The notes beneath the pieces are model-generated. The model worked only from the letters and a program-made list of their open reading frames with translations, did no database searches and was not told the origin of the DNA. Both the position numbers and the translations under genes were made by a program. Source: an uncultured cyanobacterium (GTDB lineage Bacteria > Cyanobacteriota > Vampirovibrionia > Vampirovibrionales > JAGQHJ01). Taken from it: a stretch of DNA of 37,408 nucleotides. The stretch covers positions 1 through 37,408 of the forward strand of contig CALAJO010000081.1 of assembly GCA_937922745.1 (NCBI GenBank), written 5' to 3'. Shown here in pieces: positions 1,315-7,915 of this stretch (the first letter of the stretch is position 1; each line of letters starts with the position of its first letter).

Positions 1315-3027
1315 ATGACCCAACAGGACTTGAGACATCGCAGCCGCAATACGATTGAAGGCCCCAGCCGCGCCCCGCACCGCGCCTTTTACCGCGCAAT
1401 GGGGATGCAGGATGCCGATTTCCAGAAACCGCTGATTGGTGTCGCCTCCACATGGAACGAGGTCACGCCGTGCAATATGACCTTGCATGACCAGGCGATG
1501 CGGGTGAAAGAGGGGGTTCTGGCGCAAGGGGGTATTCCGCGGGAGTTTACGGCAATATCCGTGAGTGACGGGATTGCGATGGGACATGAAGGGATGAAGG
1601 CTTCGCTCATCAGCCGGGATATCATTGCCGATTCCGTTGAGCTGGTGATGCATGGTCACGCCTATGATGCCCTTGTTGGGATTGCAGGCTGCGATAAGAG
1701 CCTGCCGGGGATGATGATGGCCATGGCCCGCCTGAATGTTCCCAGTATTTTTCTTTATGGCGGCACGATCATGCCGGGCAGCCTGGATGGGAAGGATCTG
1801 ACCGTGCAGGATGTGTATGAAGCCGTTGGGGCGTTTGCCGCTGGCCACATAACCGAGGACGAGCTGTACAAGATTGAATGCGCCGCCTGTCCTGGCGCGG
1901 GATCCTGCGGTGGGCAATTTACCGCCAACACCATGGCCTGCGTCGCGGAGGCGATAGGGTTGGCCTTGCCGGGCAGCAGCGCTTATCCGGCCCTTCATCC
2001 CGGCCGCGACGAGGTGAATCGCAAAACGGGCGAAGCCGTGATGAACCTGCTTCGGCTCGACATCCGCCCACGGGATATCCTGACCCGCAAGGCCTTTGAA
2101 AACGCAATCCGGATTGTGGCCGCCACGGGCGGATCGACCAACGCCATCCTGCACTTGCCCGCCCTGGCCAACGAAATTGGGCTCGAACTTTCCCTCAAGG
2201 ATTTTGAACGTCTGTTTAATGAGACGCCGACCTTGGCCGATCTCAAGCCCGGTGGCCGCTATGTGATGAACGACGTTTTCCGCATCGGTGGCGTGCCGGT
2301 TATCCTTAAGGCCTTGCAGGAAGCCGGTTTGCTTCATGAGGACTGCCTCACCGTATCTGGAAAAACCCTGGGCGAAAGCCTGGAAGAGGTGTTTATTCCG
2401 GATGGGCAGGATGTGGTGCTTCATCCTCAGAATGCGTTGAGCAACAGTGGCGGCTTGAAGATGCTTTTTGGCAACCTGGCCCCGGAAGGCGCAGTGGTGA
2501 AAGTCGCCGGTATGAAGCGTTTGGTCCATCGCGGCCCGGCCAAGGTATTCGAGGGAGAGGACGCCTGCTTTGCCGCCATTGAGCGTAACGAGATTGTGGC
2601 GGGCGATACGGTTATCATCCGGTATGAAGGGCCCAAGGGCGGCCCCGGTATGCGCGAGATGCTCAGCGTAACGGCGGCCCTGTATGGCCAAAACCTGGGT
2701 GATAAAGTGGCATTGTTGACGGATGGTCGCTTCAGCGGCGCAACCCGTGGCCTGATGGTGGGCCATGTTTGCCCGGAAGCTTACGTTGGCGGCCCTATTG
2801 CCCTGGTCGAGCCTGGCGACATGATCCTGGTAGATGCCGAAAACGGCGTGCTTTCCATTGAGGTGGATGAAGCCGAACTCGCCCGGCGTCGCTCAAGCTG
2901 GCAACCCCCTGCCATGCTGTATCCTTACGGCGTTTTCTATAAGTACGTCCAGGCGGTGGGCCAGGCCAGCACCGGCGCGATTACCCATCCCGGCCAGCCT
3001 TCAGCCCAGCCTGTTGCTGCGAATTAG
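1315..3027 (+). CDS. ilvD: Dihydroxy-acid dehydratase
   Basis: This enzyme dehydrates 2,3-dihydroxy-isovalerate and 2,3-dihydroxy-3-methylvalerate, the third common step of valine and isoleucine synthesis in the cytosol. The protein has 570 residues, the usual family length. Three cluster cysteines are visible: PCN (C53), GCDKS (C126, with K128 as the probable carbamylated Mg-binding Lys) and GSCGG (C198). The SDG motif is near residue 85 and TGGSTNA lies mid-protein. This Cys pattern fits the IlvD/EDD family; the [2Fe-2S] type is likely, but the cluster type cannot be proven from sequence. ATG 1315 is preceded by a weak GAGAG site. The gene stands apart from ilvBNCA, which has its own promoter and leader. 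No strong terminator follows, so read-through into the leader region is possible. Confidence 0.96.
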
Positions 3028-3127: not shown

Positions 3128-3156
3128 TTGAACCGTTATAAAAAATATGCTACAGT
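3128..3156 (+). promoter_or_regulatory. Promoter of the ilvB leader and operon
   Basis: TTGAAC (3128-3133) and TACAGT (3151-3156) are separated by exactly 17 bp in A/T-rich DNA. Transcription would begin near 3163, about 45 nt before the leader peptide ATG at 3207. The expected short leader RNA ends at the terminator at 3314-3350. Confidence 0.6.
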
Positions 3157-3206
3157 CAGAAAAATCAAAAGTGTTCAATCAACACAAAGGTCAAAGACAC
3201 ACTCTT

Positions 3207-3275
3207 ATGTTTAACCCAATGAACAGCATTATTATTCTCGTGGTGATTATTCTCAGCGGTTATGCCGGTGGGTAA
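3207..3275 (+). CDS. ilv operon leader peptide (attenuator peptide)
   Basis: This is a 22-codon ORF, ATG 3207 to TAA 3273-3275, between a promoter and a rho-independent terminator upstream of ilvB. Residues 8-16 read IIILVVIIL, a run of nine consecutive Ile, Leu and Val residues. These are exactly the end products of the pathway encoded downstream. That is the hallmark of ribosome-mediated attenuation, known from the E. coli ilvGMEDA and ilvBN leaders: shortage of charged tRNA stalls the ribosome in the run and prevents the terminator forming. The ribosome site is poor (AAAGG lies 16 nt upstream), so start efficiency is uncertain; ATG 3219 is an in-frame alternative. The peptide itself is not expected to have another role. 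Confidence 0.8.
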   Translation: MFNPMNSIIILVVIILSGYAGG

Positions 3276-3350
3276 ACGAGACTGTTCATAAAAAAGCAAA
3301 GCAGAATCTCAACAAACCGCCGGCCCTCCAAGGACCGGCGGTTTTGGTTT
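3264..3350 (+). terminator. Attenuator: terminator with competing antiterminator pairing
   Basis: The terminator stem is AAACCGCCGG (3314-3323) with CCGGCGGTTT (3335-3344). It continues past a C-A mismatch by two more pairs to a small loop, and is followed by TTTTGGTTT (3342-3350). The 5' arm CCGCCGGC (3317-3324) can instead pair over 8 bp (one G-U) with GCCGGTGG at 3264-3271, which encodes the last residues of the leader peptide. A ribosome that finishes the peptide would cover 3264-3271 and allow termination. One stalled on the Ile/Leu/Val codons (3228-3254) would leave it free to form the antiterminator. The structure is read from sequence; the mechanism is inferred from known ilv/leu/his attenuators. 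Confidence 0.8.
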
Positions 3351-3398
3351 AAGCCCCCATCACACCCAAAAGCAAGTAAACACAAAGGAGTTAAATCG

Positions 3399-3533
3399 AT
3401 GCAAGCCACCCTTCAAGCCCTTAACAGCCTTCTCAACCAAGTTGCCCTGCTGCTTGGCGTGCGAGTGGGCCTTGAGGTGGTGGTGGCGCCTGTCGGCGTC
3501 GCTCGGATGGAGGGCCGAACCCATGGCCGCTAA
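3399..3533 (+). CDS. Leu/Val-rich 44-residue ORF overlapping the ilvB start
   Basis: ATG 3399 has the best ribosome site of the region, AAAGGAG at 3384-3390 with 8-nt spacing, directly after the attenuator terminator. The ORF runs 44 codons to TAA 3531-3533. It contains 8 Leu and 8 Val but no Ile, concentrated in LLNQVALLLGVRVGLEVVV (residues 11-29). Its last codons overlap the start of ilvB (ATG 3523) by 11 nt in another frame, so translation of ilvB is probably coupled to it. It may be a second regulatory leader acting on ilvB translation, or a real small protein. Its N-terminal half could form an amphipathic or membrane helix. I recognise no family. The start, ribosome site and overlap are seen; the role is inference. 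Confidence 0.65.
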   Translation: MQATLQALNSLLNQVALLLGVRVGLEVVVAPVGVARMEGRTHGR

Positions 3534-5259
3534 TATGCACTCGCCCGAAACCCAGACGAAAACGTTGAACGGCGCGAATATCTTTCTCAGCGCCCTGGTT
3601 GCGGAACAGGTGGATACGATCTTTGGCTTGCCCGGGGGCGTTATCCTCCCCATCTACGATGCCTTGCCGCAGTATCCTTCATTGCGCCATATCCTCGTTC
3701 GTCACGAACAGGGCGCGACCCATATGGCGGAAGGGTATGCCCGCGCCACCGGCAAACCCGGCGTGGTTCTGGTCACTTCCGGGCCTGGCGCCACCAACGT
3801 GGTGACCGGGGTTGCGGATGCGTACTATGACTCCGTGCCGCTAGTGGTGTTTACCGGCAATGTCGCCACCGGTATGCTGGGCAACGATTCCTTCCAGGAA
3901 GCGGATATCGTCGGCATGACCCGCTCCGTGACCAAGCACAACATTATCGTCCACCGGGTTGAAGAACTGGCCGCGGCTATTAAGGAAGCCTTTTACGTGG
4001 CCCGCACGGGGCGTCCCGGCCCGGTACTGGTGGATATGCCGAAAGATGTCCTGCTGGCGACGGCCGAGTTTGATTATGAGGCCACTCCAATCGATCTGCC
4101 GGGTTATGAGCTGAATGAAACCTTTACCGATGCCGATTTGAACGCGCTGTTGCAGATCCTGGGCGAGGCAAAACAGCCGATGATGCTGATCGGCGGCGGT
4201 GTCGTGACTTCCGGTTCCCATGAGGAAGTGTTGGCCTTCGCCGAGCGTTTCAATCTGCCGGTTGCGTCTTCGCTCATGGGCCTGGGTGGGTTCCCTGCCA
4301 ACCATCCGCTTTACCAGGGATTCGCCGGGATGCACGGGCATTACTGGACGAATATTGCCATTGCCAACGCGGATGTATTGCTGGTCGTCGGCAACCGATT
4401 GAACGAGCGGCAGACCGGGAAGGCCGACCGGTTTGCGAAGCACGCCCGCATCATCCATATCGATCTCGATCCGACCTCGCTGAACAAGAATGTTTTGTCC
4501 ACGCTGCCCATCCAGGGCGATATCCGGAACATCATGACGCGTTTGCTGGAGCAATCCAGCCAGATGACACTGGATGCTGAAATCCATGCATCCCGCCAGG
4601 ACTGGTTCCGGATGATTGAAGGCTGGAAGTCTCGCAAGGAAACCAAGGCTTCGCCGGACGGGTTTTTGACCCCGCAGTATGCTATTGAGCGCCTGTTCCA
4701 CTGGTTGCCGCACAATGCCTTTGTGACCACGGAAGTGGGGCAGCACCAGATGTGGACGGCCCAACGCTTTAACCTGTCCCGCCCCAGGAGCTTCATCTCT
4801 TCCGGTGGCTTGGGCACCATGGGGTTTGGCTTCCCGGCGGCCATCGGCATACAAACCGCTTTCCCCGAAGCCATGGTTCTGGATATCGCCGGCGATGGCA
4901 GCTTCCAGATGACGCTGCAAGAGCTGGCCACGGCCCGTGACTACAATTTGCCCGTCAAGGTCGCCATCATCAACAACGGCTACCTGGGCATGGTGCGCCA
5001 GTGGCAAGGGCGCTTTTTCCAGGGTGAGTCCGAAACCCGGATGACCTCGCCCGACTACATCAAGCTGGCGGAAGCTTATGGATGCAAAGGCTTTGTCGTC
5101 GAGCATCCCGAGCAGGTGGATGAGGTTATCCGCCAGGCCTACGCCATTACCGACTGTCCCGTTATCATCGACTTCCGCGTGCAGGAAAAGGCCGATGTCT
5201 ACCCATGGGTGCCGGCCGGGGGCAGTAACGACACCATGCTGACCGAAGATACAAAGTAA
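3523..5259 (+). CDS. ilvB: Acetolactate synthase, large (catalytic) subunit
   Basis: This ThDP-dependent enzyme condenses two pyruvates to acetolactate, or pyruvate with 2-oxobutyrate to acetohydroxybutyrate, the first committed step to Val, Leu and Ile. It has 578 residues from ATG 3523, which has GGAGG at 3509-3513 with 9-nt spacing. An in-frame TTG at 3442 lacks a ribosome site. Visible motifs are the catalytic Glu in HEQGATHMAEGYA (E62), the ThDP/Mg motif GDGS near residues 457-460 with NN at about 484, and MVRQWQ, whose Trp lines the herbicide/FAD region in known AHAS enzymes. Lengths and order match IlvB/IlvG/IlvI. The gene lies behind the attenuator and overlaps the small ORF at 3399-3533. 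ilvN follows after 19 bases. Confidence 0.96.
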   Translation: MAANMHSPETQTKTLNGANIFLSALVAEQVDTIFGLPGGVILPIYDALPQYPSLRHILVRHEQGATHMAEGYARATGKPGVVLVTSGPGATNVVTGVADAYYDSVPLVVFTGNVATGMLGNDSFQEADIVGMTRSVTKHNIIVHRVEELAAAIKEAFYVARTGRPGPVLVDMPKDVLLATAEFDYEATPIDLPGYELNETFTDADLNALLQILGEAKQPMMLIGGGVVTSGSHEEVLAFAERFNLPVASSLMGLGGFPANHPLYQGFAGMHGHYWTNIAIANADVLLVVGNRLNERQTGKADRFAKHARIIHIDLDPTSLNKNVLSTLPIQGDIRNIMTRLLEQSSQMTLDAEIHASRQDWFRMIEGWKSRKETKASPDGFLTPQYAIERLFHWLPHNAFVTTEVGQHQMWTAQRFNLSRPRSFISSGGLGTMGFGFPAAIGIQTAFPEAMVLDIAGDGSFQMTLQELATARDYNLPVKVAIINNGYLGMVRQWQGRFFQGESETRMTSPDYIKLAEAYGCKGFVVEHPEQVDEVIRQAYAITDCPVIIDFRVQEKADVYPWVPAGGSNDTMLTEDTK

Positions 5260-5278
5260 AAAGGAGCGATTGACTGCA

Positions 5279-5617
5279 ATGAAATTCACCTTGTGTTGTC
5301 TGTTACAAAATCGCCTGGGCGCGTTGGATCGCGTTTTGGGCGCACTGACCTACCGCGGGTTCGTCCCCGACAATTTCTATTCCACCTTTGATCAAAAGGC
5401 TGGTTGCCTTCAGGTGGTCGTCACCTTTGAGTGCCAGGAGGAATCCACCTGCCAAAAGCTCGTCAAGTTCCTCGAAAAACAGGTTTACGTCCTTGAAGCC
5501 CGCGCCGAAGCCATGCAGCCGACGGAAAACGTTCAGGTGGTTTCGCTGGCGGACTTCGCCTCATCCGTATTGAATCCCGTTGTTGTAAAAAGGAGAGTTT
5601 CCAATGCCCACAGTTGA
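5279..5617 (+). CDS. ilvN: Acetolactate synthase small (regulatory) subunit, short ACT form
   Basis: This 112-residue protein begins MKFTLCCLLQNRLGALDRVLG and has the ACT-domain layout (RxGxLxRVLGxLTYRGF, then the second beta strand LQVVVTF). It should bind the catalytic subunit, raise its activity and perhaps mediate valine feedback. It is close in length to the E. coli IlvN/IlvM forms and lacks the long C-terminal domain of IlvH-type subunits of about 160 residues. ATG 5279 is chosen over TTG 5270, because AAGGAG at 5261-5266 gives 12-nt versus 3-nt spacing. The last 14 bases overlap ilvC, whose ribosome site lies inside this gene. Whether this short form is inhibited by valine cannot be read from sequence. 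Confidence 0.88.
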   Translation: MKFTLCCLLQNRLGALDRVLGALTYRGFVPDNFYSTFDQKAGCLQVVVTFECQEESTCQKLVKFLEKQVYVLEARAEAMQPTENVQVVSLADFASSVLNPVVVKRRVSNAHS

Positions 5618-6647
5618 TATGCCCCAGAAACTGACGATGTATTACGACAAGGACATCGATCGCAGCCTGCTCCTGTCGAAGAAAATTGCCGTTGTTGGCT
5701 TTGGAAGCCAGGGTTACGGGCAAAGCCTCAACCTCAAGGAATCTGGCGCAAACGTTAAAGTTGCCCTGAGAAAAGGCAGCCCGACCGAGGCTAAGGCAGA
5801 AGCCGCGGGCCTGGGCGTGGTTGCGCTGGAAGAGGTTGCCGACTGGGCTGACGTTGTTGTGTTCCTGATCCCGGATGTTCACCATGGCAAGGTGTACAAG
5901 GATTACTTCGAGGGCCGCCTGAAGAAGGGGCAATCGCTGGTATTTAGCCACGGCTTCAGCGTGCATTACCAGGAAGTGGTTCCGCCTGCGGATGTTAACG
6001 TCTTCCTGATTGCGCCGAAAAGTCCGGGACACCTCGTCCGCTCCGAATATCAGCGGGAGCGCGGCGTACCGGCGTTAATGGCGGTGTACCAGGATGCCAC
6101 CGGCGAAGCCCGTGAGCTGGCGCTGGGTTATGCGGCATGTATCGGTTCCGGCCGCGCAGGCATTATTGAAACCACCTTTAAAGATGAAACCGAAACCGAT
6201 CTCTTCGGGGAGCAGGCCGTGCTTTGCGGTGGCGCCACCTCGCTAGTTAAAGCCGGTTTTGAGACACTGGTTGAGGCCGGTTATCCGCCGGAGCTGGCCT
6301 ACTTTGAGTGTCTCCACGAGTTGAAACTGATTGTGGACTTGATGTACGAAGGCGGCCTGGAGGATATGCGCTATTCTATCAGCGATACCGCGCGTTATGG
6401 CGATGTGACCCGTGGCCCGCGTGTGGTTGGCCCAGAAGTGAAGGAAGCGATGAAAACGGTTCTTGCGGAAATCCAGTCCGGCAAATTCGCCAAGGAATGG
6501 ATTGCCGAGTTCCACGCCGGCCAGCCGAACCTGAAAGCCCTGGTCGAAGCCGATCGCAATCACCCGTTGGAAGTGGTTGGCCATAAACTCCGCGGGATGA
6601 TGACCTGGCTCAAGGATTCCCGCCTCGTCAACCGCGATCGCAATTAA
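5604..6647 (+). CDS. ilvC: Ketol-acid reductoisomerase (class I)
   Basis: This enzyme isomerises and reduces acetolactate and acetohydroxybutyrate with NAD(P)H, the second common step of branched-chain synthesis. The 347 residues fit the short class I form. Domain one is a Rossmann fold with GFGSQGYGQ (residues 32-40) and SHGF with H116. Domain two holds the Mg ligands in DETETDLFGEQ (about D199, E203) and YFECLHELKLIVDLMYEGG (about E235, E239). GRAGIIETTFKDE is typical of the family. GGAG precedes ATG 5604 and the start overlaps the ilvN end, so translation is coupled. A hairpin lies between it and the next gene. Confidence 0.97.
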   Translation: MPTVDMPQKLTMYYDKDIDRSLLLSKKIAVVGFGSQGYGQSLNLKESGANVKVALRKGSPTEAKAEAAGLGVVALEEVADWADVVVFLIPDVHHGKVYKDYFEGRLKKGQSLVFSHGFSVHYQEVVPPADVNVFLIAPKSPGHLVRSEYQRERGVPALMAVYQDATGEARELALGYAACIGSGRAGIIETTFKDETETDLFGEQAVLCGGATSLVKAGFETLVEAGYPPELAYFECLHELKLIVDLMYEGGLEDMRYSISDTARYGDVTRGPRVVGPEVKEAMKTVLAEIQSGKFAKEWIAEFHAGQPNLKALVEADRNHPLEVVGHKLRGMMTWLKDSRLVNRDRN

Positions 6648-6694: not shown

Positions 6695-6733
6695 TCCGAC
6701 CAACACCGTATGCAACCCAAGGAGAAGCAGAAC

Positions 6734-7915
6734 ATGCCCGCACAAACGGAAGACCCCAACCTTTCGTCCTATCGCTCACCAGTCGTCACCCCGGCATCCT
6801 CCATGCTGGATCTGGCGATTGATGAGAAGGGGCGAATTCGGTTGCCGGGTTTCCCGGCGGGCTTATCCATCAACGAATATCTTCCTTTGGTGCATCTCTA
6901 TGCTTCAGTCTTAGAAGCAGACAGGCTTCTGGATTGTTACCGGCCTGTGTTGGGCATGCGCCCGACGAATTCGTTGCAAGCCCCGCTGACGGATTTGAGC
7001 CCTTCCACGCGCACGCAGAACCTCTTTTACAAGCGGGAAGATCAGACGGTGACGCGGGCTTACAAGGTTCGCGGCGCCGTTGTAGGGATGGCCAAGGTGA
7101 TGGAAAGCAATCCGGCGAGCGGCTTCCTGGCCGTATCGACCGGTAACCATGCGCTGGGCGTGTTAAAGGCTGCCGAACTGCTTCGGCCTGACTCCGTACG
7201 GATTGTGGTGCCGGCCAATACGGCGGCGGCAAAAATGGATAAAATTACGGCCCAGGTACAAAACCTGCTGGAGCAAGGCGTCCGGGCGTCGCTGGTGTAT
7301 GCCGGTGAAACCTTTGACGAGGCGCGCGACTGGGCCATGACGTTGAGTGATGGGGAATACTATCTCGATCCCTACAGCGACCCGTGGGTGGTGGCTGGCC
7401 AGGGAACCATCGGCCTGGAGTTGTTCCGGCAGACACGGGCCCTGGTAGCGGATCGGGATATTGAGGAAGTGATGGTGATTTCGCCTATTGGGGGCGGTGG
7501 TTTGCTGGCCGGCACGGCAACGGCCTTTAAAATGGCCGCGGCCTGGGATCAGCGTTTCCGCAACGTGGATCTCCGGTTTACCGGCCTGCGTCTTGAAAAC
7601 CAGGAAACGCTTTATGGCGATGCCATCCGCGTGAATGATGTTGCGGAGGTGAACCGCAAGCTGTTGGATTCGTTAAATGTGGCCGTGATGCCCATTAACG
7701 ATAACATGATGGCCGAAGGCATGCTGGGTGTGAAAGACGACCTGGGTGTTACCGTGGAAGGCCCGAGCGGCGGGACGCTCTATCCTGCACTGCGCTTTGG
7801 CGCCTGCATGCCCACCCGTAAGCGGATGGTGGTTTGTATTCTCAGCGGAGGCAATGCATCCGCGTTTCCCAGCCCGGTGATGCAGCCCCGTCCTTTGGCC
7901 GTATCCGGCTGCTGA
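6734..7915 (+). CDS. ilvA: Threonine ammonia-lyase (threonine deaminase) without regulatory domain
   Basis: This is a PLP enzyme of fold type II. In this operon it most likely converts threonine to 2-oxobutyrate, the isoleucine precursor. It has 393 residues from ATG 6734 (AAGGAG 6719-6724, 9-nt spacing); ATG 6710 is in frame but lacks a ribosome site. Visible features are the Schiff-base Lys in AYKVRGA (K111), the substrate/PLP loop STGNHALG (135-142), the phosphate-binding PIGGGGLLAG (251-260) and a C-terminal SGGN. The N-terminal 90 residues before the catalytic core are longer than in catabolic TdcB-type enzymes, while the C-terminal ACT-like domain that gives isoleucine inhibition in E. 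coli IlvA is absent. Serine dehydratase or serine racemase activity is possible from sequence alone; the ilv context favours IlvA. Confidence 0.85.
   Translation: MPAQTEDPNLSSYRSPVVTPASSMLDLAIDEKGRIRLPGFPAGLSINEYLPLVHLYASVLEADRLLDCYRPVLGMRPTNSLQAPLTDLSPSTRTQNLFYKREDQTVTRAYKVRGAVVGMAKVMESNPASGFLAVSTGNHALGVLKAAELLRPDSVRIVVPANTAAAKMDKITAQVQNLLEQGVRASLVYAGETFDEARDWAMTLSDGEYYLDPYSDPWVVAGQGTIGLELFRQTRALVADRDIEEVMVISPIGGGGLLAGTATAFKMAAAWDQRFRNVDLRFTGLRLENQETLYGDAIRVNDVAEVNRKLLDSLNVAVMPINDNMMAEGMLGVKDDLGVTVEGPSGGTLYPALRFGACMPTRKRMVVCILSGGNASAFPSPVMQPRPLAVSGC

Follow-up and report, generated by a model that had tools for sequence, protein, structure and literature searches.

The 37,408-nucleotide stretch of DNA analysed here (the window) carries, in front of ilvB, an element that is very likely a ribosome-mediated transcription attenuator of the ilvBNCA operon. 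Judged from anatomy, helices, conservation and folding calculations, the mode of action, ribosome-mediated attenuation, appears near certain. A preliminary description had already proposed this mechanism, and the proposal is now supported by a codon run and a terminator stem that are conserved in nine genomes, as well as by a covarying antiterminator that competes with the terminator. The antiterminator, a protector hairpin (P1) and a second small open reading frame (ORF 2) were absent from that description and are all described here. On the + strand, to which all coordinates below refer, the order is ilvD (1315-3027, just 5' of the attenuator region), promoter-like sites, leader ORF 1, terminator, ORF 2 and ilvB-ilvN-ilvC-ilvA. 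The genes behind the leader make the amino acids that it would sense. The earlier assignment of these genes stands in full for ilvB (acetolactate synthase large subunit, 3523-5259, TIGR00118 above cut-off) and ilvC (ketol-acid reductoisomerase, 5604-6647), both of which meet curated models, whereas the ilvN-like small subunit (5270-5617, TIGR00119 with E 2.9e-6) and the ilvA-like threonine dehydratase (6710-7915, PALP in Pfam, with IlvA models as the best matches) are recognisable but fall below the curated cut-offs.

Leader ORF 1 (3207-3275) runs for 22 codons from ATG 3207 to TAA 3273-3275 and encodes MFNPMNSIIILVVIILSGYAGG, with homologous peptides in eight other genomes. It contains nine consecutive Ile/Leu/Val control codons at 3228-3254 (ATT ATT ATT CTC GTG GTG ATT ATT CTC), and both the ORF and the run are read directly from the DNA as previously reported. 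A mechanical ORF caller opens this frame at ATG 3147, which lies inside the promoter, and 3207 (or 3219) is therefore the likely start codon; a good Shine-Dalgarno sequence is absent before both positions. Runs of at least nine Ile/Leu/Val codons in a short ORF occurred in 0 of 60 simulated window-sized sequences and at three places in 677 kb of real DNA from elsewhere, and our scan of ilvB upstream regions picked out none of those three as a leader with a terminator and ilvB behind it. The 188-nt leader was also more stably folded than all 200 of its shuffles (z -3.6). For the promoter, the sites named earlier are present in the sequence, as a -35-like TTGAAC (3128-3133) and, after a 17-nt spacer, a -10-like TACAGT (3151-3156) with TGC in front (extended -10), but the match is weak (8/12 to consensus for both boxes together) and use of this promoter is presumed. 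A 9/12 promoter scan of the window did not list TTGAAC-17-TACAGT; by eye, relatives have TATGAT, TATAAT, TACAAT or TATACT as -10-like sequences at a similar place.

The host belongs to the order Vampirovibrionales in the Melainabacteria, which are non-photosynthetic and form a sister group of the cyanobacteria; the window IlvB shares 72% identity with the one from a metagenome-assembled genome named Vampirovibrio chlorellavorus (L001) in the same order. The suggestion that the organism lies on the cyanobacterial side is thereby borne out. The leader was found in nine of the eleven ilvB upstream regions of the order (the window and ten others), beginning about 310-490 nt 5' of ilvB, and was missing from those of two genomes of one genus (G004 and G006). 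Three of the nine leaders are nearly identical and come from a single genus, whose three genomes encode MNILNSVVIILVVILSGPAGGI; seven distinct leaders were used in shuffle and folding tests. Other relatives encode MSFLNNVVIILLVILSGPAGGI, MQSPLNNIIILVIIILIGSPGG, MINSFVNSVVLLIIVLSGRPVSLESC and MKIASLHMLNPVFTRHALIILVVLLILPVLLMAR, and in one more the peptide MQFLNSVLVIILVILSGPLPV is part of a longer frame. The Ile/Leu/Val run is kept among these relatives while its codons vary, and the comparison proposed in the preliminary description gave a clear answer, as run and stem are conserved in nine Vampirovibrionales genomes while the flanks drift.

We scanned 137 ilvB upstream regions of up to 1 kb each for a leader plus terminator and found a strong combination only in Vampirovibrionales; none of about 125 regions from outside the order matched as strongly. 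Attenuator-type leaders at ilvB or other ilv genes are known from Alphaproteobacteria, and four alphaproteobacterial ilvB regions (L032, L038, L062 and L068) were recovered with shorter leaders, serving as a positive control of the scan. These have a short branched-chain amino acid (BCAA) ORF of the ILVLVGRP type and a terminator 130-310 nt before ilvB; their run is much shorter than that of the Vampirovibrionales leader, to which we noticed no sequence similarity. Since the same scan found no leader plus terminator at ilvB in the other Melainabacteria or the Cyanobacteria sampled, Vampirovibrionales appear to be the only order sampled in the phylum that has an attenuator at ilvB. A separate pattern search that combined the codon run with CCGGCGG hit unrelated places only.

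Three helices, which are present in all nine leaders of the order, would make up the switch. The strong terminator reported between leader and ilvB is a stem-loop at 3314-3344 with a GC-rich 10-bp stem (3314-3323 with 3335-3344) that is kept in relatives, followed by a tail to 3350 that is T-rich but interrupted (TTTTGGTTT); a pattern scan for terminators in the window did not list it. The antiterminator pairs GCCGGUGG (3264-3271), in the last codons before the leader stop, with CCGCCGGC (3317-3324), which overlaps the terminator 5' arm, and forms 7-9 bp in all nine leaders. It is extended by pairing of GAGA (3278-3281) with UCUC (3307-3310), and the whole helix (3264-3281 with 3307-3324) is mutually exclusive with the terminator. 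In most relatives the extension takes the form TTGAATC:GATTCAA, and in L086 it is AUAAG:CUUAU. P1 pairs ATGAACAG (3219-3226), just 5' of the control codons, with CTGTTCAT (3282-3289), beyond the leader stop, and thus encloses the codon run. A further observation in this region is a perfect ten-base complement between the terminator loop region (3321-3330, CGGCCCTCCA) and the ilvB Shine-Dalgarno region (3508-3517, TGGAGGGCCG), which may be due to chance.

Covariation is clearest for the antiterminator. In the alignment 92.8% of its cells are paired and four pairs have changed on both sides, a result that was equalled in none of 500 shuffles, and in each of the seven distinct leaders its complementarity exceeds that of shuffles (p 0.001-0.046). 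The sequences of the antiterminator and of the two terminator arms have shifted in concert in L090 (GGCTCGGT / ACCGAGCC / GGCTCGGT). Conservation of the leader peptide also constrains the 5' arm of the antiterminator, as this arm is coding sequence. Covariation counts are weaker for P1 and the terminator, since the latter is almost invariant across the eight sequences of the alignment (L090 left out); for P1, complementarity against shuffles gave p 0.001-0.075 in the seven distinct leaders, and its pairs are imperfect in some relatives.

Our results lead us to propose the following sequence of events. RNA polymerase would begin near 3163 and a ribosome would read leader ORF 1. When charged tRNAs for Ile, Leu and Val are ample, the ribosome would reach the stop at 3273 and cover 3264-3271, which would prevent the antiterminator from forming and let the terminator (3314-3344) fold, so that transcription would end near 3345-3350. 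If Ile-, Leu- or Val-tRNA were short, the ribosome would stall in 3228-3254 and cover the P1 5' arm, leaving 3264-3281 free to pair with 3307-3324; the terminator would then be blocked and the operon transcribed. Folding calculations agree with both states: with a ribosome footprint masked in the codon run, each of the seven distinct leaders formed 7-9 antiterminator pairs in its nascent RNA, while a footprint masked at the stop left none in the six leaders tested in this way. Without translation, P1 would form first and enclose 3264-3271, and the operon would stay off. By energy alone and without a ribosome, the antiterminator beats P1 in six of the seven leaders, and superattenuation would therefore rest on folding order. 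The layout differs from the textbook one in that the codon run is enclosed by P1 rather than contained in it, and stalls early in the run should consequently matter most. We infer the use of the promoter, the start codon, the timing and the response to amino acids from these features.

Between the terminator and ilvB lies ORF 2 (3399-3533), which encodes the Leu/Val-rich MQATLQALNSLLNQVALLLGVRVGLEVVVAPVGVARMEGRTHGR, is preceded by a Shine-Dalgarno sequence AAAGGAG at 3384-3390 that is read directly, and crosses the ilvB start codon to stop inside the ilvB start region. It occupies this place in eight genomes, each with an AAGGA-type Shine-Dalgarno sequence and each with its stop 11-14 nt within the ilvB reading frame, and is missing from three of the eleven ilvB regions in the order. 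Counterparts lie at the matching place in L081-L086, L088 and L001. Each of the 15 pairs formed by six ORF 2 sequences gave a pN lower than pS (for example 0.069 vs 0.184 for L081/L083). ORF 2 is therefore very probably translated, and translational coupling to ilvB is the role that we consider most likely.

A more elaborate role, in which control is two-tiered and ORF 2 acts beyond the attenuator as a second sensor of Leu/Val supply, governing ilvB translation or blocking Rho, is in our view doubtful. The good Shine-Dalgarno sequence, the conserved place and the ilvB overlap of 11-14 nt, all seen in eight genomes, are in keeping with it, as is the core VV(V/L)LLLGTPP, followed by a VVV run, that five relatives have kept and at whose place the window has VALLLGVRVGLEVVV (VALLLG...VRVGLEVVV). 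Stalling that lowers reinitiation has also been proposed for leaders near genes (PMC4833913). However, Leu/Val enrichment is weak in two genomes, ORF 2 itself is not universal at ilvB in the order, and simple translational coupling accounts for it as well. No convincing consensus fold of ORF 2 emerged, and no consistent alternative structure was found around it. Sequestration of the ilvB Shine-Dalgarno sequence by ORF 2 codons, which is tempting by eye, exceeded synonymous-codon controls in 0 of 8 genomes.

Attenuator-type ilv leaders are known from enterobacteria, where the mechanism is best known, and the ilvXGMEDA operon of E. coli has a comparable layout: a BCAA-rich leader ORF (ilvL, 3950322-3950420) and a terminator are followed by a small ORF (ilvX, 3950507-3950557) directly before the acetolactate synthase gene (ilvG, from 3950560). 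This is an analogy of layout only, between operons of different phyla and different content (ilvBNCA in the window). To our knowledge, E. coli ilvX has no BCAA run, whereas ORF 2 at 3399-3533 in the window is Leu/Val-rich and overlaps the ilvB start.

The attenuator reading is also supported by independent leaders elsewhere in the class, in each of which the codons suit the genes that follow. These were found with a covariance model built from eight leaders and searched without regard to ilvB, the genes being identified with Pfam and NCBIfam. In G009, a genome in which no ilvB was detected, a leader with an Ile run (MNTLINSIQIIIMLTASPVSSDCC; L207, G009:C12:62700-67600, reversed) precedes an IlvA-like dehydratase and an amino-acid permease. 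G003 has a Trp leader ending in SPQWTWWRLQNKRLQDWFLR (L226) before DAHP synthase and trpE, and a Phe/Tyr leader ending in NYFYYFFYPIEGFKRH (L246) before DAHP synthase and prephenate dehydrogenase (tyrA); in G007 the Phe/Tyr leader MIVHGQHPSFYYFSFTRPAGFVGLAV (L225) precedes DAHP synthase. Two genera in another family of the class, G038 (L218) and G055 (L219), have Asp/Asn-rich leaders containing CDRDNNNSDNDLWR and NNNDNDPSSDWW, respectively, before aspartate--tRNA(Asn) ligase, an enzyme that would be non-discriminating and charge both tRNA-Asp and tRNA-Asn. In each of these leaders a stretch near the end complements the terminator 5' arm (per-place p 0.001-0.014). As most of the weak model matches scored on their terminator, it is the codon match that counts as independent evidence here, and the way in which codon content tracks gene function is the best support that the leaders would act as amino-acid gauges.

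Several other places in the class resemble these leaders in part. Met/Cys/Ile-rich leader ORFs (such as MFLTAYNFAGMMMCPMLPRRIG) with a terminator were seen at L209 (G000:C48), at L247 and L250 (G012, G014) and at L213 (G016); the proteins behind them form a homologous family, for whose L209 member NCBIfam gave no family match, and antiterminator support at these places is weak or absent. L215 (G009:C5) has a leader with seven His codons, then a terminator and a protein without a Pfam match, while the leaders at L214 (G009:C11) and L216 (G016:C140) contain MMMCCMMC and CCCCACM, respectively, each followed by a terminator. In a search for His-run leaders in the order, those clear long runs that were translatable within a large ORF proved to be His-rich stretches of cation-transporter-like proteins. 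No cognate codon run accompanies the weak model matches in G096, G098, G065, G111 and G026 or several of those in G001, G014 and G015, which resemble chance matches or ordinary terminators. One might speculate, very tentatively, that Vampirovibrionales use tandem BCAA control, with the attenuator followed by a Leu/Val-reading ORF 2 that adjusts ilvB translation, and that the class uses an unusually broad set of leader peptides, including Asp/Asn leaders before non-discriminating Asp-tRNA synthetases and Met/Cys leaders before an unknown family of proteins.

The pathway-specific residues bear on another view of leader ORF 1, namely that its product is a small, hydrophobic membrane peptide with a function of its own, the terminator just ending the ilvD transcript. 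IIILVVIIL is hydrophobic and resembles a short membrane segment, and ilvD does lie upstream of the terminator. Leader residues in other operons of the class, however, track the pathway (Trp, Phe/Tyr, Asp/Asn) and not hydrophobicity, and a plain terminator needs no second partner, whereas the 5' arm of this one has a conserved and covarying partner in the last leader codons; we consider this explanation very improbable. Even less probable is a ligand-binding riboswitch or T-box with an incidental leader ORF: ilv operons elsewhere are under ppGpp riboswitches and T-boxes (PMC10272879), but in our Rfam search of the leader no cis-regulatory family (ilv/leu leader, riboswitch or T-box) reached its gathering score, the best sub-threshold match being a rhizobial sRNA with 18.3 of 40 bits, and the codon run is kept though its codons vary, with short helices arranged around the ORF.

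A ribosome-mediated attenuator at ilvB thus remains the preferred reading, and the mechanism as such is a classic one. Its presence on the cyanobacterial side had been called unexpected and possibly undescribed. The second point stands insofar as we found no earlier report of leader-peptide attenuation in cyanobacteria, Melainabacteria or Vampirovibrio in the open-access literature, but the mechanism is not confined to enterobacteria, as descriptions exist for Firmicutes, Actinobacteria and further Proteobacteria (PMC2965389, PMC1262725, PMC5794164, PMC10272879). According to a 2010 survey, which added Firmicutes, leader peptides had up to that time been known from Proteobacteria and Actinobacteria alone (PMC2965389). 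In the actinobacterium Corynebacterium, the ilvB-II motif comprises a BCAA-rich uORF, a terminator and an antiterminator before ilvBNC, and a reporter was regulated by the medium (PMC10272879); one uORF is described there, whereas the leader in the window has P1 around its codon run and a second ORF behind it. The ilvB-OMG and Leptospira ilvB motifs may be further leaders of the attenuator type. In Staphylococcus aureus, a Leu-rich attenuator peptide and a terminator in the ilvD leader control the ilv-leu operon, and the antiterminator proposed there sequesters the poly-U tail, while that of the window pairs with the terminator 5' arm as in the classic model (PMC5794164).

A classic mechanism would thus occur in a lineage for which we found no earlier report, with ORF 2 as a possible new twist. 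Attenuation on the cyanobacterial side, at ilvB apparently in one non-photosynthetic order, bears on the question of its repeated origin. The Asp/Asn leader before an enzyme that would charge both tRNA-Asp and tRNA-Asn offers a natural check of the codon-to-gene logic. A largely uncultured lineage would gain a readable regulatory code, in which leader codons name the controlling amino acid, including that of genes of unknown function.
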